Origin: Oscillibacter sp.
GTDB taxonomy: Bacteria; Bacillota; Clostridia; Oscillospirales; Oscillospiraceae
Direction: 5' to 3'
NCBI GenBank assembly: GCA_017547085.1
Contig: JAFYQM010000003.1
Span: 1 to 40,169, forward strand
Length of the DNA stretch: 40,169 nucleotides
The translations under genes and the position numbers were made by a program. Below, one piece after another: positions 211 through 39,437 of this stretch. How positions within the stretch are numbered: position 1 is the first letter of the stretch; every line of letters starts with the position of its first letter. The notes beneath the pieces were generated by a model that ran no database searches, was not told the origin of the DNA, and saw only the letters and a list, made by a program, of their open reading frames with translations.

Positions 211-217
211 AAGTAAA

Positions 218-425
218 AATCAATCATGTTTCGTGGCCGCTGCGGGGGATTATCCACCGTACCGGCTGAACAAGAGAATCGGGTGAGAATCCCGAACGGT
301 ACCGCCGCTGTATGCGCAGAGCCCTCTTTTTGGACGAAAGTCAGTCACTGGGGAGACCTGGGAAGGCAAAAGAGGGCGTGGAGGCTTTCTCCGGATGCGT
401 GAGTCAGAAGACCTACGGGACAGAA
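218..425 (+). promoter_or_regulatory. Cobalamin (vitamin B12) riboswitch
   Basis: The aptamer hallmarks occur in the correct order: AAGAGAATCGGGTGAGAATC and the paired CCCGAACGG stretch around 270-300, the ACCGCCGCTGTATG motif at about 301-315 (the B12-box CCGCNNCTGTA region), AGTCAGTCACTGGGG at about 340-355, GGGAAGG at about 360-366, and the closing GAGTCAGAAGACCTAC segment at about 402-417, which corresponds to the usual AGTCAGGAGACCTGCC end. An intrinsic terminator at 484-517 lies between the aptamer and the first gene. The expected behaviour, from the family, is that adenosylcobalamin or a related corrinoid binding favours the terminator and turns the operon off. Exact 5' and 3' limits are approximate. 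Confidence 0.9.
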
Positions 426-483
426 GGATACCCTACTCCTGCGGAAAGACGGGGGAGGGGGTCATTTTGCGTGCGGAAAAACG

Positions 484-25032: not shown

Positions 25033-25896
25033 TTAATCCTCCTCGCGGATCATCATGGTACCGATGCCCTTGTCAGACAGCAGCTCGATCAAAATGGAAT
25101 GGGGGATGCGGCCGTCCAGAATGTGGACACGGTCTACGCCGCCGTGGATGGCCTGCACGCAGCACTCCATCTTGGGGATCATGCCGCCGGAGATCACGCC
25201 CTCTTCCACCAGCTTGGGCACCTCGTAGGTGTGCACCACATGAATGAGGGTCTCCTCGTCCTTGGGGTCGCGGAGCAGGCCGCGGATGTCGGTCAGCAGG
25301 ATCAGCTTTTCCGCACCCAGCGCCACGGCCAGCAGAGCGGCGGCGGTGTCGGCGTTAATGTTGTAGGCGGTGTCTTTATCCACGCCCTGTGCCACGGTGG
25401 ACACCACGGGGATGTAGTTGTTTTGCAGCGCGGTCTGCACCGGCTCGGTGTTGACGGCGGTGATCTCGCCTACCAGACCGTACTTTTCCTCCATCTGGAC
25501 TGCCTGGAACAGCTGTCCATCCATGCCGCACAGCCCGATGGCGTTGCCGCCGAGGCGGTTCAGTTGGGCGACCAGATTCTTGTTGACCTTGCCGCACAGC
25601 ACGGACTGTACCACATCCATGGTGACTTCGTCGGTGTAGCGCAGGCCGTCCACAAAGTGGGACTGGTGGCCGATCTTTTTCAGCATATCGTTGATCTCAG
25701 GGCCACCGCCATGGACGACCACGACACGGATACCAACCAGATGCAGCAGGATGATATCCTTCATCACAGCCTGACGCAGCTCGTCGGAGATCATGGCGTT
25801 GCCGCCGTATTTCACCACGATGGTCTTGCCGGTAAATTTCTGAATGTAAGGCAGAGCCTCGACCAGTGTCTGGGCCTGCTGTGCATGAGAAGACAT
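25033..25896 (-). CDS. argB: Acetylglutamate kinase
   Basis: A 287-residue amino-acid kinase that phosphorylates N-acetylglutamate, the committed step of arginine synthesis. The phosphate-binding lysine and glycines lie in TIVVKYGGNAM, the substrate loop is VVVVHGGGPEIN, and INADTAAALLAVALGAEKLI plus GVISGGMIPKMECC complete the signature. The N-terminal stretch QAQTLVEALPYIQKFTGKT is of the arginine-sensitive hexameric type (an N-terminal helix is present), so feedback inhibition is likely. The start at 25896 follows AAAAGGAGGG; the upstream part of the frame is the repeat-filled spacer and is not coding. The argJ gene is 177 bases upstream. Confidence 0.96.
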   Translation of the reverse strand: MSSHAQQAQTLVEALPYIQKFTGKTIVVKYGGNAMISDELRQAVMKDIILLHLVGIRVVVVHGGGPEINDMLKKIGHQSHFVDGLRYTDEVTMDVVQSVLCGKVNKNLVAQLNRLGGNAIGLCGMDGQLFQAVQMEEKYGLVGEITAVNTEPVQTALQNNYIPVVSTVAQGVDKDTAYNINADTAAALLAVALGAEKLILLTDIRGLLRDPKDEETLIHVVHTYEVPKLVEEGVISGGMIPKMECCVQAIHGGVDRVHILDGRIPHSILIELLSDKGIGTMMIREED

Positions 25897-25920
25897 ATGC
25901 TTCCCTCCTTTTCGTTTCCC

Positions 25921-26054
25921 TTGCTCCGACGCAAACCAGCCAAGCGGGAGGTGAATTGCCCGCAGGGCAAAAGAAGTCCCTCTGGAGGGTTTGCGGAGGA
26001 AAGATGAGGAATCGCCTGTCCGGTCAAGCGGCACTTTGTAAAAGTGCTGCGGAC
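25921..26054 (+). repeat. Hairpin-rich intergenic repeat in the argJ-argB spacer
   Basis: This spacer holds three stem-loops. TTGCCC/GGGCAA is at 25956-25970. CCCTC/GAGGG is at 25978-25989. GCGGCACTTT with AAAGTGCTGC is at 26028-26050, clamped by GTCC/GGAC (26018-26021, 26051-26054). A longer outer stem GCAAACC with GGTTTGC (25931-25937, 25988-25994), extended by CTCC/GGAG, can close around the core. The core (GGTGAATTGCC, hairpin, GCAA, AGAAG, CTCTGGAG) reappears on the opposite strand near 38081-38115 in the serC-serA spacer, with different but still complementary stems. In the arg transcript it is read as the antisense copy. Neither a promoter nor a terminator is apparent. Confidence 0.6.
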
Positions 26055-26073
26055 CTATCAGGTGTATTCCGAA

Positions 26074-27297
26074 TCAGGTGCGATAATCGCCGTTGATCTT
26101 CACATAGTCATAGGTCAGGTCACAGCCCCAGCAGGTGCAGGCAGCCTCGCCCTCGCCCATGATAATGTTGATTTCCACATCGTGCTCAGAGAGCACCTTC
26201 TTGGCCAGATCTTCGTCGAAATCCAGACCGCGGCCCTTGGCACACACCGCCACATCGCCTGCGGCGGAGGTGAAGTGGACATCTACCTTCTCAGGGTCAA
26301 ACTGCTCGCCGGAATAGCCCATGGCGCACAACACGCGGCCCCAGTTGGCGTCCGCACCAAAGATGGCGCACTTGGTGAGAGAGGAACCGATGACGCTCTT
26401 AGCCAGTGTTTCGGCCTGTGCTTCAGTGGCCGCACCCTTGACGGAGCAGGTGATGAGGTGCTTGGCACCTTCACCGTCAGCGGCCATCATCTTGGCAAGC
26501 TCGATACAAAGTGCTTGCAGTGCAGCCAGAAATGCGGCGTAGTCCTCGCCTTTTTCGGTGATCTCCGCGTTGCCTGCCATGCCGTTGGCCAGCACCATGC
26601 AGGTGTCGTTGGTGGAGGTGTCGCCGTCCACGCTAATGCGGTTGAAACTGACGTTCACCGTCTCCAGCAGGGCGGTTTTGATCATAGCGGGGGAGATGGC
26701 GCAGTCAGTGGTCAGGAAGCAGAGCATGGTGCCCATGTTGGGGTGGATCATGCCGCTGCCCTTGGCGATACCGCCCATGCGGACGGTCTTGCCGCCGACG
26801 GTGGTTTCCACGGCGACTTCCTTCTTCACAGTGTCGGTGGTCATGATGGCGTGGGCTGCCGCATCGCTGGCTTCGATGGAGTGATCCAGCGCGGCACACA
26901 GGTCAGCCATGCCATCCTCGATGACCTTGACGTTCAGCGTCTGGCCGATGACACCGGTGGAGGACACCAGCACATCCATGGGATCGCAGCTGATAGCTGC
27001 GGCAGCTGCCTGACACATCCGGATGGCGTTTTCCTCGCCCATGGGAGCGCAGGCGTTGGCGTTGCCGCTGTTGGCAATGACGGCTTTCGCCCTGCCGTTT
27101 TCCAGATGCTTCTTGTCCACGTGAATGGGGGCGGCCTTTACCACGTTTTTGGTGAACACGGCGGCTGCTGCGCAGTCCACATCGGAAACGATGAGGGCCA
27201 CATCCTTCTTCCAGCCGGCCTTGGTCTTGACACCCACATGGATGCCCGCGGCCTTGAAGCCCTGTGCGGCGCAGACGCCGCCTTCGATAAATTTCAT
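26074..27297 (-). CDS. argJ: Bifunctional glutamate N-acetyltransferase / ornithine acetyltransferase
   Basis: A 407-residue self-cleaving Ntn-type enzyme that moves the acetyl group from N-acetylornithine back to glutamate, closing the cyclic arginine pathway. The cleavage site lies in MGGIAKGSGMIHPNMGTMLC, where the Thr of MGTML becomes the nucleophile of the beta chain; VIANSGNANAC and VSSTGVIGQTLN are the oxyanion-hole and substrate regions, and TSTNDTC and GADANWGRVLCAMGYSG complete the pattern. Presence of argJ and absence of argA/argE in the operon fit the recycling pathway. AAGGAGGATCC precedes the ATG at 27297. Whether it can also use acetyl-CoA cannot be told from this reading. Confidence 0.95.
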   Translation of the reverse strand: MKFIEGGVCAAQGFKAAGIHVGVKTKAGWKKDVALIVSDVDCAAAAVFTKNVVKAAPIHVDKKHLENGRAKAVIANSGNANACAPMGEENAIRMCQAAAAAISCDPMDVLVSSTGVIGQTLNVKVIEDGMADLCAALDHSIEASDAAAHAIMTTDTVKKEVAVETTVGGKTVRMGGIAKGSGMIHPNMGTMLCFLTTDCAISPAMIKTALLETVNVSFNRISVDGDTSTNDTCMVLANGMAGNAEITEKGEDYAAFLAALQALCIELAKMMAADGEGAKHLITCSVKGAATEAQAETLAKSVIGSSLTKCAIFGADANWGRVLCAMGYSGEQFDPEKVDVHFTSAAGDVAVCAKGRGLDFDEDLAKKVLSEHDVEINIIMGEGEAACTCWGCDLTYDYVKINGDYRT

Positions 27298-37034: not shown

Positions 37035-37943
37035 TTAAAAGCTTTCGATGATATCCACCAGCTCTGCGCCGATGCGCTTCTGTGCTTCTTTGGTGCCCGC
37101 ACCGATATGAGGCAAACAGGAGACTGCGGGATGGGCTGCTAACTCCCAGTTGGGATTCTTTTCGTCCATCCACACGTCCAGACCGGCGGCCTTTACCTTG
37201 CCGGAATTGAGGGCCTCCAGCAGTGCGGCTTCATCTAAGTTGGAGCCGCGGGACACGTTGATAATCACCACGCCGTCCTTCATTTTGGTAAGACTTTCGG
37301 CATCCACCAGCGGCTTGCTGCCGCCCGGGGCGCAGAGGATCAGGATATCAGACTTGGCGTAGACCTCATCCGGTGTGACGAACTTCATCGTCTCGCACTC
37401 ACAGCCCTCCGGCTTGTTGCGATTGACATAAGACAGTACGTTCATGCCCAGAGCCTGACACTTGGCGCCCACCAACTGGCCGATGCGTCCGTAGCCGATA
37501 ACGCCTGCTGTCTTACCCATGACTTCGAAACCCTTGGAGTAGGTCTTCTTCTCCCATTTCTGTTCCCGCATGGTGTGCCCCGCGATGGAGATACTGCGGG
37601 CACAGGAGAACAGCAGGGCGATGGCCAGCTCGGCTACGGCGTTGGAGGAAGCGCGAGGCGTGTTTTTCACGGTGATGCCTGCGGCCTCCGCATACTTCAC
37701 GGCGATATTGTCCACGCCGACGCCTGCACGGATGATCAGCTTCAGGCGGCTGTCCTTGGCGGCGTCGATCTGCGGCTCCTTGATCTTGGTGGCAGAGCGG
37801 ATGATGACCGCGTCAAAGTCCCGCAGGGCCGCGCCTAAAGCGTCCGGTTCGTAGAACTGTTCCACCACTTCATAGCCATCGTTGCGCAGCTTTTCCACTG
37901 CACTTGCGTCCATTCCGTCAGTTACCAATACGCGCATTGACAT
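37035..37943 (-). CDS. serA: D-3-phosphoglycerate dehydrogenase, short form without ACT domain
   Basis: A 302-residue D-isomer-specific 2-hydroxyacid dehydrogenase. The NAD-binding motif is GVIGYGRIGQLVGAKCQALG (about 150-169), with the catalytic Arg in VIINVSRGSNLDEAAL, Glu near DVWMDEKNP, and His in CLPHIGAGTKEAQ. It makes 3-phosphohydroxypyruvate, the first step of serine synthesis. It ends right after the catalytic domains and has no ACT regulatory domain, so feedback by serine through ACT is not expected. Identity as SerA rests on the adjacency to serC, upstream on the same strand. The ATG at 37943 follows AAGGGG at 10 bases; ATG 37937 and TTG 37949 are alternatives. Confidence 0.9.
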   Translation of the reverse strand: MSMRVLVTDGMDASAVEKLRNDGYEVVEQFYEPDALGAALRDFDAVIIRSATKIKEPQIDAAKDSRLKLIIRAGVGVDNIAVKYAEAAGITVKNTPRASSNAVAELAIALLFSCARSISIAGHTMREQKWEKKTYSKGFEVMGKTAGVIGYGRIGQLVGAKCQALGMNVLSYVNRNKPEGCECETMKFVTPDEVYAKSDILILCAPGGSKPLVDAESLTKMKDGVVIINVSRGSNLDEAALLEALNSGKVKAAGLDVWMDEKNPNWELAAHPAVSCLPHIGAGTKEAQKRIGAELVDIIESF

Positions 37944-37976
37944 ATTCAATTACCCCTTCACAAATATTTTCGTTGC

Positions 37977-38337
37977 GTGCGCACCCCAGGGGCGCACAGT
38001 GAAAATCCCAGTACCCATTGGGGGACAGGTACTTGGCAAAAGCCGCGGGAAAGCGGTGCATTTTCGCCGCGACACACTCCAGAGTGGCTTCTCTTGCCGC
38101 TTTGCGGCAATTCACCTTCTGAGTGTGGCGAAAATACAAAGCCCCAGCCGCCGTGCACTCGCAAGGAGTATGCGATATCCGTAAGGCGCTGAGGCGCCAA
38201 CGGCTATCCAAGGCGGCGTTCACCAGTGGAGTGGCTTCACTGGCGGTGGGGGATTATCCTGCGCAGCCGTTAGCAGCTTTGCTGCTTTACGGATGCGGCG
38301 TACCCCTTGCGGGTGAAGGGGGAGCCTGTTCCCCCTT
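37977..38337 (-). repeat. Dense array of stem-loops in the serC-serA spacer, shares core with the argJ-argB repeat
   Basis: About 400 bases without a gene, packed with at least nine inverted repeats. Examples: GTGCG/CGCAC with CCCC/GGGG (37977-37997), AGTACC/GGTACT (38010-38033), CACTC/GAGTG (38075-38086), TTGCCGC/GCGGCAA (38094-38110), an outer TTTTCGCC+ACACTC with GAGTGT+GGCGAAAA (38061-38079, 38121-38134), GGCGC/GCGCC (38185-38198), CCAGTG/CACTGG (38223-38243), AGCAGC/GCTGCT (38272-38286), AAGGGGG/CCCCCTT (38316-38337). Two units with the frame ATCCGTAA-stem loop-AACGGCT lie in opposite orientation at 38177-38205 and 38265-38294. The minus strand is the transcribed one. No T-run terminator is seen, so serA may still be co-transcribed. 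Confidence 0.7.
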
Positions 38338-38345
38338 GACGATTT

Positions 38346-39437
38346 TTAGGCGTGTTCCGCTTCGTACTTCTTCAGGAACTCCACCAGAGCCTCCACGCCT
38401 TCCTTGGGCATGGCGTTATAGATGGAGGCGCGCAGACCGCCCACGCTCTTATGGCCCTTCAGATTGTCGAACCCGGCAGCCTTGGAGGCGGCCACCACAT
38501 CGGCATCCTGCTCGGCAGAGGGCGTCACGAAGGGGACGTTCATCAAAGAGCGGTCTTCCTTGCGGACAGCACCGGTGAACAGCTTGCTGGAATCCAGGAA
38601 GTCATACAGGATGCCTGCCTTTTCCTCGTTGCGGGCATTCATGGCCTCTAGACCGCCGTTATCCAGCAAGTACTTGAACACCTTGCCACAGCAGTAGATG
38701 GCCCAGCAGTTGGGGGTGTTATACAGGGAATCGTTGTCGGCATGGGTCTTGTAGCTGAGATAGGTGGGCACCTTGGGGTCCAGATCGTCACGCAGCAGGT
38801 CTTCGCGAATGATGACCACAGCCATACCGGCGGGGCCCACGTTTTTCTGCACGCCTGCCCAGATCAGACCATATTTGCTCACATCGCAGGGACGGGAGAG
38901 GAACATGGAGGACTGGTCAGACACCAGCAGTTTGCCCTTGGTATCGGGCAGCTGGTAGTAGGTAGTGCCGTTGATGGTCTCGTTCTCGCAGATGTAGACA
39001 TAGTCTGCGTTGTCGGGAATGTCCAGATCGGAGCAATCAGGGATATAGGAGAAGTTCTTGTCCTTGGAGGAGGCGACAATCTTGACTTCGCCGTATTTCT
39101 TGGCTTCAGCAATGGCCTTCTTGGACCATGCGCCAGTCTCCACATAGCAGGCCACGCCGTTTTTCATCAGGTTCATGGCTACCATGGCGAACTGCACGGT
39201 GCCGCCGCCCTGAATGAACAGGACCTTGTAGTTGTCGGGAATGCCCATCAGCTTGCGCAGGTCGGCTTCCGCCTCATCGCGGATCTGCTGGAACACCTTG
39301 GAGCGGTGGCTCATCTCCATGACGCACATACCGCTTCCGCGGTAGTTCATCATTTCGGCAGCGATCTCTTCCAGAACGGGCTCCGGCATCATGGCGGGGC
39401 CTGCGGAGAAGTTATAAGTGCGACCGTATTTCATCAT
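38346..39437 (-). CDS. serC: Phosphoserine aminotransferase
   Basis: A 363-residue class-V PLP aminotransferase that converts 3-phosphohydroxypyruvate and glutamate to phosphoserine. It opens YNFSAGPAMMPEPVLEEIAA, has the FIQGGGTVQFAMVAMNL cofactor region, DQSSMFLSRPCDV with the PLP-binding Asp/Ser, and the lysine-containing strip around YGLIWAGVQKNVGPAG (Lys of GVQKN). Later SVGGLRASIYNAMP is the conserved C-terminal phosphate-binding segment. The ribosome site AGGAGGAATC precedes tandem ATGs (39437, 39434). It is first in a serC-serA pair; no serB is in the window. A near-consensus promoter lies upstream. Confidence 0.96.
   Translation of the reverse strand: MMKYGRTYNFSAGPAMMPEPVLEEIAAEMMNYRGSGMCVMEMSHRSKVFQQIRDEAEADLRKLMGIPDNYKVLFIQGGGTVQFAMVAMNLMKNGVACYVETGAWSKKAIAEAKKYGEVKIVASSKDKNFSYIPDCSDLDIPDNADYVYICENETINGTTYYQLPDTKGKLLVSDQSSMFLSRPCDVSKYGLIWAGVQKNVGPAGMAVVIIREDLLRDDLDPKVPTYLSYKTHADNDSLYNTPNCWAIYCCGKVFKYLLDNGGLEAMNARNEEKAGILYDFLDSSKLFTGAVRKEDRSLMNVPFVTPSAEQDADVVAASKAAGFDNLKGHKSVGGLRASIYNAMPKEGVEALVEFLKKYEAEHA

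Follow-up and report, generated by a model that had tools for sequence, protein, structure and literature searches.

As far as the excerpts of the sources cited here describe them, GTAG- and CGTC-tagged REPs are small, folded, and present in many copies, each being a single palindrome of 20–40 bp (Di Nocera et al. 2013, PMC3733652); REP size is also given as 21–65 nt (PMC6006769). In three species, REPs or REP dimers lie inside other palindromes (PMC3733652). MITEs such as Correia, RUP, and ERIC are reviewed as non-autonomous, repeated, and structured elements (PMC2229807) with a size of 70–300 bp (PMC3733652). A survey of ncRNAs in 50 genomes reports MRSC-65-2, a repeat with covarying structure that occurs in diverse phyla and is judged closer to a selfish element that might function as DNA (PMC11109978).

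In this study, we analyzed a stretch of 40,169 nucleotides from Oscillibacter sp. (assembly GCA_017547085.1, contig JAFYQM010000003.1, positions 1 to 40,169; hereafter the window). It carries two copies of a short folded sequence: unit A in the argJ-argB spacer (25897–26073, both genes on the minus strand) and unit B in the spacer of serC and a serA-like gene. The features in window coordinates are as follows.

25947..25989, plus strand: unit A, 43 bp, antisense to the argJ-argB operon
Parts of unit A, first half: X = G25947; loop GAGGTGAA 25948–25955; P2 25956–25961/25965–25970 with loop GCA
Parts of unit A, second half: AAGAAG 25971–25976; Y = T25977; P3 25978–25982/25985–25989 with TG in between
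25925..25946, plus strand: left arm of the host palindrome of unit A, TCCGACGCAAACC...
25990..26012, plus strand: right arm of the host palindrome of unit A, TTTGCGGAGGA...
25033..25896, minus strand: argB, acetylglutamate kinase (TIGR00761, 267 bits), start 50 nt from unit A
26074..27297, minus strand: argJ (NF003802, 471 bits)
38075..38119, minus strand: unit B, 45 bp, sense with the serC and serA-like genes
Parts of unit B, first half: X = G38119; AAGGTGAA 38118–38111; P2 38110–38104/38100–38094
Parts of unit B, second half: GAGAAG 38093–38088; Y = C38087; P3 38086–38082/38079–38075
38120..38142, minus strand: left arm of the host repeat of unit B, GTATTTTCGCC...
38053..38074, minus strand: right arm of the host repeat of unit B, ...GGCGAAAATGCA
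38346..39437, minus strand: serC, phosphoserine transaminase (NF003764, 523 bits)
37035..37949, minus strand: serA-like phosphoglycerate/2-hydroxyacid dehydrogenase (TIGR01327, 271 bits, below the cut-off of 454)

The product of the serA-like gene has 304 aa as listed, with an uncertain start, and scores below the curated cut-offs. Unit A reads GGAGGTGAATTGCCC-GCA-GGGCAAAAGAAGTCCCTC-TG-GAGGG on the plus strand (25947–25989), and its X-Y pair is G.T; unit B reads GAAGGTGAATTGCCGC-AAA-GCGGCAAGAGAAGCCACTC-TG-GAGTG on the minus strand (38119–38075). Both copies had been recognized in the initial annotation, and their stems differ but stay paired exactly as quoted there (TTGCCC/GGGCAA versus TTGCCGC/GCGGCAA, and CCCTC/GAGGG versus CACTC/GAGTG). 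The interval that it had assigned to the arg copy, 25921..26054, does contain unit A; the rest includes a separate strong hairpin of the spacer at 26028–26050 (GCGGCACTTT-GTA-AAAGTGCTGC), which lies outside the unit family. Scanning the argJ-argB spacer for consensus motifs revealed nothing resembling a promoter or terminator. Between serC and unit B (38140–38335) there is a run of more palindromes that appears by eye to be a mosaic of host-type repeats.

The general plan of the unit is X-AAGGTGAA-[hairpin P2]-GAGARG-Y-[hairpin P3, CTGG apex], in which X and Y form an additional covarying pair (CG 78, GC 77, TA 8, AT 5, and other 12 in 180 distinct units). In the consensus of these 180 units, P2 is TTGC..GCAA, usually of 4–7 bp, and P3 has five pairs with TG at the tip. 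Among 223 matches of 44–56 bases that were retained for the length count, 217 units measure 42–46 bp, and the commonest length is 45 bp (172/223). At least 97% of the 180 units share one letter in 11 of the 14 loop columns, a value that is inflated because many units were found by the exact core pattern. The fairer figure therefore comes from 31 distinct genus units that escape the search pattern, in which 11 of 14 columns reach at least 90% and the others 65–81%.

The stems covary. The covariance model was built from 27 distinct copies, and 98.4% of the cells in their alignment are paired, versus 84.7% after shuffling and 43–59% with the partner slid. Two of the five measures applied to this set are weak: pairs changed on both sides (6 versus 3.8 shuffled, reached by 10/500 shuffles) and further pair types (9 versus 9.1 shuffled, 357/500). 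Across 97 distinct rows from multiple phyla, 97.1% of cells are paired versus 78.9% shuffled and 41–56% slid; cells changed on both sides number 210 versus 62 shuffled, and such changes occur in 10 of 13 pairs versus 6.9 shuffled. The shuffle controls ignore relatedness, which inflates pair counts. The model was given 97 of 133 pattern loci (L068–L200); the omission of 21 that were already included or were near relatives, and of 15 judged by eye to be chance matches (8 genome, 7 viral), raises the pairing percentages.

A degenerate core pattern occurs three times in the genome of the window and is present in 12/60 genomes (own included), comprising 12/37 of the genus and 0/23 others of the order, versus 0/60 for the same pattern read backwards as a control; the shared core is beyond chance. 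A covariance-model search, as had been proposed in the initial annotation, gave five matches at E ≤ 3.5e-13 in the own genome, along with three weaker ones at 4.9e-4, 0.06, and 0.76. In the genus (Oscillibacter and Dysosmobacter), 21/41 genomes matched at E ≤ 0.01, with 1 to 17 matches each. The pattern scan of one genome per species matched at least 120 stretches, from which chance matches were dropped. Among the matches listed, carriers outside Oscillospiraceae are Agathobaculum, Lutispora, Lachnospiraceae, Mariprofundaceae, one Gracilibacteria genome, and the gammaproteobacterial Sedimenticola, Zhongshania, Seongchinamella, Thiotrichales, and Oleiphilaceae. We take these carriers to represent Gammaproteobacteria, Zetaproteobacteria, Clostridia, and Gracilibacteria. 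Copy numbers at E ≤ 0.001 in 26 genomes or records are 50 in A. butyriciproducens, 44 in Sedimenticola, 42 in L. saccharofermentans, and 36 in Seongchinamella, down to 1. When genomes were drawn without the pattern and few candidates were scored per genome, the unit was found in 3/299 genomes of the window's phylum (own included) and in 11/185 of the class of Sedimenticola (Sedimenticola included). With one natural unit as the query, which diverged units could escape, E. coli genomes gave no match, and plasmids and phages gave no place covering 80% of the query. In IMG/VR, 13 stretches contain the pattern and six match the model (L189, L191, L194, L196, L197, and L199); these units on viral contigs are perhaps prophage-borne, a possible transfer route.

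The initial annotation had described a family of structured repeats whose stems covary, and it knew of no named element with this core. Both statements hold: the family is real, with many copies in Oscillibacter/Dysosmobacter, other Clostridia, and other phyla, and it is undescribed within the literature and databases searched. At the gathering threshold of Rfam 15, the only match in the window is a cobalamin riboswitch (214–434, plus strand, 76 bits), and 15 carrier loci match only a tRNA; known Rfam RNAs were ruled out as the identity of the unit on the lack of a family match. HEARO was considered and rejected. None of the papers listed by literature searches showed this core, and those listed for the letters GGTGAATTGC had unrelated titles.

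The unit resembles GTAG/CGTC REPs, as far as the excerpts describe them, in being small, folded, present in many copies, and nested in palindromes (PMC3733652), but differs in its two hairpins, its fixed asymmetric internal loop, and loop letters that are kept in distant taxa. The 180 units carry no GTAG or CGTC tag and start with X followed by AAGGTGAA-like columns, each 90–99% one letter. The likeness to IS200/IS605 ends and TnpA-REP systems lies in hairpins near both ends and a single-stranded DNA logic, as outlined in the excerpted text (PMC6006769). The described MITEs share with the unit their non-autonomous, repeated, and structured nature (PMC2229807), from which the unit differs in having no terminal inverted repeats (by inspection), no duplication, and a length below 70 bp. 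MRSC-65-2 is one long stem with UYCCGG repeats (PMC11109978), whereas the unit folds into two short hairpins around a different core. MRSC-65-2 is the only one of the 250 mobile or repeat candidates of that survey that was compared, and the unit could be among the others (PMC11109978).

We determined the unit boundaries by joining the left and right flanks of each unit and seeking the junction in 1.6 Mb of DNA, using 207 units after 16 of the 223 with unit-like flanks were dropped. A strict empty site was found for 91/207 units, with no base duplicated or lost. Shuffled flank partners gave 3, 6, and 8 such sites, and moving one boundary by 1–3 bases gave 0–4; since few or no strict matches are left on moving the boundary, X and the final base of P3 are the exact ends of the unit. 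The 91 units are not independent because many have a host class in common. Most empty sites are further copies of the host repeat, located in the same genome or a different one, rather than the same place in a sister strain. In the own genome, locus L034 matches ATTTTCGCCACGTACA^CGCCGCGGCGAAAATGATT in L014 with 0 mismatches in 35, and a unit in a Lutispora host repeat (L326) has its unit-free form in the same genome (L325) with 1 mismatch in 44. The base before the unit is A in 159/223 and the base after it is T or C in 203/223, so the site is mostly A^Y.

The initial annotation had described unrelated outer arms that close around the core. These arms are not part of the element but belong to separate host repeats that have unit-free counterparts, and the arm GGTTTGC quoted for the arg copy takes in two G of the P3 hairpin. 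By sequence, the host of unit B belongs to the class whose empty sites lie in L014 and L218. Host arms like those of unit A occur elsewhere with a unit inside (L016), and the only possible empty site found for this host is a diverged one, L199 (7 mismatches in 42), from a permissive search that includes trivial matches; all counts rest on the strict search alone. Host arms pair well: the stem score is at least 16 in 82/191 flank pairs versus 5.5% of shuffled pairs, a count that uses a later control, as an earlier shuffled control was weakened by shared host families. We read the hosts as including GTAG- and CGTC-type REPs (Zhongshania and Seongchinamella) and several clostridial palindromes. 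In Lutispora, units of the G-C and C-G types lie at an identical host position (L318 and L324), and Seongchinamella has spacer-free head-to-tail units, at least seven in one array. Several of the unit arrays of Seongchinamella sediminis (L086, L309, L310, and L312) lie at palindromes read as CGTC-type REPs. Sedimenticola copies have common flanks, and host repeats that move while carrying a unit can account for part of the copy number. At orthologous places in the genus (e.g., L005, L049, L206, and L011), the unit is kept and pairing is retained through differences in the host arms, P2, and P3, which may reflect descent or replacement. In L186 (813–862), the P3 tip of a unit has an apparent insert of ~35 nt, as if units themselves were targets of nesting.

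A covarying fold, conserved loop letters (AAGGTGAA/GAGARG), exact unit-free junctions, palindromic hosts, and both orientations are observed, and we consider that the unit is probably a very small, non-autonomous, structure-dependent mobile DNA module whose mover acts in trans. The folded single strand, probably ssDNA, would be recognized by an enzyme that acts on it in trans and excises or copies the unit. The target would be a palindrome likewise extruded as a hairpin, with the unit joined close to its tip, and selection for mobility of the folded form would give rise to the covariation. The arg copy would have arisen by an insertion of this kind, its target being a palindromic repeat upstream of argB. 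Against the mobile reading, the strict search of the 1.6 Mb gave no empty site for 116/207 units, 109/191 flank pairs do not reach a stem score of 16, and no transposition event was seen.

An arg-specific role of the unit is unlikely. Besides the own locus, 29 argB loci were obtained from 38 argB-bearing genomes; the 230 nt upstream of argB was inspected, and a loosened core pattern was applied to each of the 29 loci. None of these congener loci has a unit (one locus was partly masked), and an arg-operon regulator was rejected on this basis. In a further genome outside the 29, G016, the argB spacer does contain a unit, but a different one that lies in the orientation opposite to the operon, so the arg operon is merely one landing place. 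At argB, several congeners instead carry a unit-free clostridial host palindrome, and one of these (L343) is the empty site for the unit in L232. The carrier locus L016 was ruled out as an arg ortholog, as argB of that genome is on another contig.

Among the alternatives, the one that survives best, although it too seems unlikely, is that the unit is a functional RNA module, a protein-binding or stability element in mRNAs or intergenic transcripts, whose fold is selected as RNA and whose copies spread with the repeats. The strong covariation and conserved internal loops fit this explanation, the RNA of the unit folds well, and, by gene predictions made for this analysis, 34 of 64 genus units off predicted genes lie in sense between two co-directional genes and 16 are antisense. 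An RNA fold acting on one strand is expected to show G.U above A.C. Over all pairs, mismatch cells are G.T 54 versus A.C 39. The second pair of P3 accounts for G.T 28 versus A.C 4, an excess that favors the sense strand and could fit RNA; by subtraction, the remaining pairs have G.T 26 versus A.C 35, which speaks against RNA. The P2 triloops also do so. GNA triloops are unusually stable in DNA, and they make up 78/123 of the P2 triloops. The closing pair is C-G in 151/167 units. The nine tetraloops include five GNRA, a point against the DNA reading, and no UNCG (13/180 units with a stem below 4 bp were left out of this tally). The near-equal G.T and A.C counts and the GNA triloops thus lean towards a role as ssDNA rather than RNA. 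One Oscillibacter host repeat contains 19 units in the forward and 7 in the reversed orientation, and this host class is itself co-directional with both neighbors in 18 of 22 units off predicted genes (by the same gene predictions). These opposed orientations, the exact unit-free junctions, and the absence of a unit from the 29 other argB loci all weigh against an RNA module. The compensatory changes had been taken initially as direct evidence that the folded form matters. The covariation itself is confirmed, but given the close G.T and A.C counts, the GNA loops, and both orientations in one host repeat, it need not mean a functional RNA.

It is quite unlikely that the unit is non-autonomous and moved by a Y1 (HUH) transposase of the IS200/IS605 or REP-associated type. 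Members of the IS200/IS605 family insert without target-site duplication, as the unit does, and the two hairpins and REP-like hosts are further points in favor. However, the tetranucleotide expected 5' of the left end was not seen: only A is preferred at this position (159/223), and the flanks share no such motif. The Y1 domain (PF01797, E ≤ 0.001), which is also that of the RAYT genes expected alongside GTAG/CGTC REPs, was found in 16/24 carriers and not in 8/24, where drafts may miss genes, and Agathobaculum butyriciproducens, with 50 copies, has no PF01797 match. Sixteen Y1 loci contained no unit by the strict core pattern. Across 41 genomes of the genus, 12 have both unit and Y1, 9 the unit only, 3 Y1 only, and 17 neither, a co-occurrence that may reflect shared genome mobility rather than cause. 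Dependence on IS110 or a reverse transcriptase fares similarly, with IS110 (PF01548) in 10/24 and RVT_1 (PF00078) in 14/24 carriers, again in drafts that may miss genes; A. butyriciproducens lacks RVT_1 as well as Y1, and Sedimenticola and Seongchinamella lack both IS110 and RVT_1. None of the three can be the common mover, unless through draft gaps or loss after spread. No mover was found, and no family tested is present in all 24 carrier genomes (drafts may miss genes). A shared neighbor protein was also rejected: the 40 largest ORF clusters within 3 kb represent, by inspection, shared genomic places, general families, or repeat-spanning ORFs.

Quasipalindrome correction, in which template switching perfects DNA hairpins and would produce the covariation without selection on the fold, matches the almost wholly Watson–Crick stems with small strand bias and the host arms, which also pair well, but it is very unlikely because it would keep neither the covariation of the single X-Y pair and the 5-bp P3 nor the fixed unpaired loop letters.

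Beyond the mobile reading that we prefer, we tentatively raise the possibility that the unit represents a new mobile DNA class whose members would rank with the smallest described: a 42–46-base folded single strand with precise A^Y integration in palindromic repeats, present in at least three bacterial phyla and based on neither Y1-HUH, IS110, nor reverse transcriptase, possibly moved by a general host hairpin-processing enzyme. The origin of very small bacterial repeats is now testable, since this 45-bp unit, whose fold is fixed, whose unit-free junctions are exact, and whose copies occur in unrelated phyla, defines boundaries, a site rule, and structural constraints. The high-copy genomes named above are places to seek the mover. 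Our data also provide a warning that strong covariation in intergenic DNA alone does not prove a functional RNA.

Units may also occur within coding sequences. In-frame placement inside open reading frames has been reported for Rickettsia palindromic elements. By eye, units in L085 (843–889) and L150 (863–908) lie in frame within open reading frames and encode QGEL..GKRR-like peptides. ORFs that run across a unit yield recurring peptides, such as KVNCPEGAREA, and hypothetical proteins containing these peptides may be mis-annotated repeat copies.
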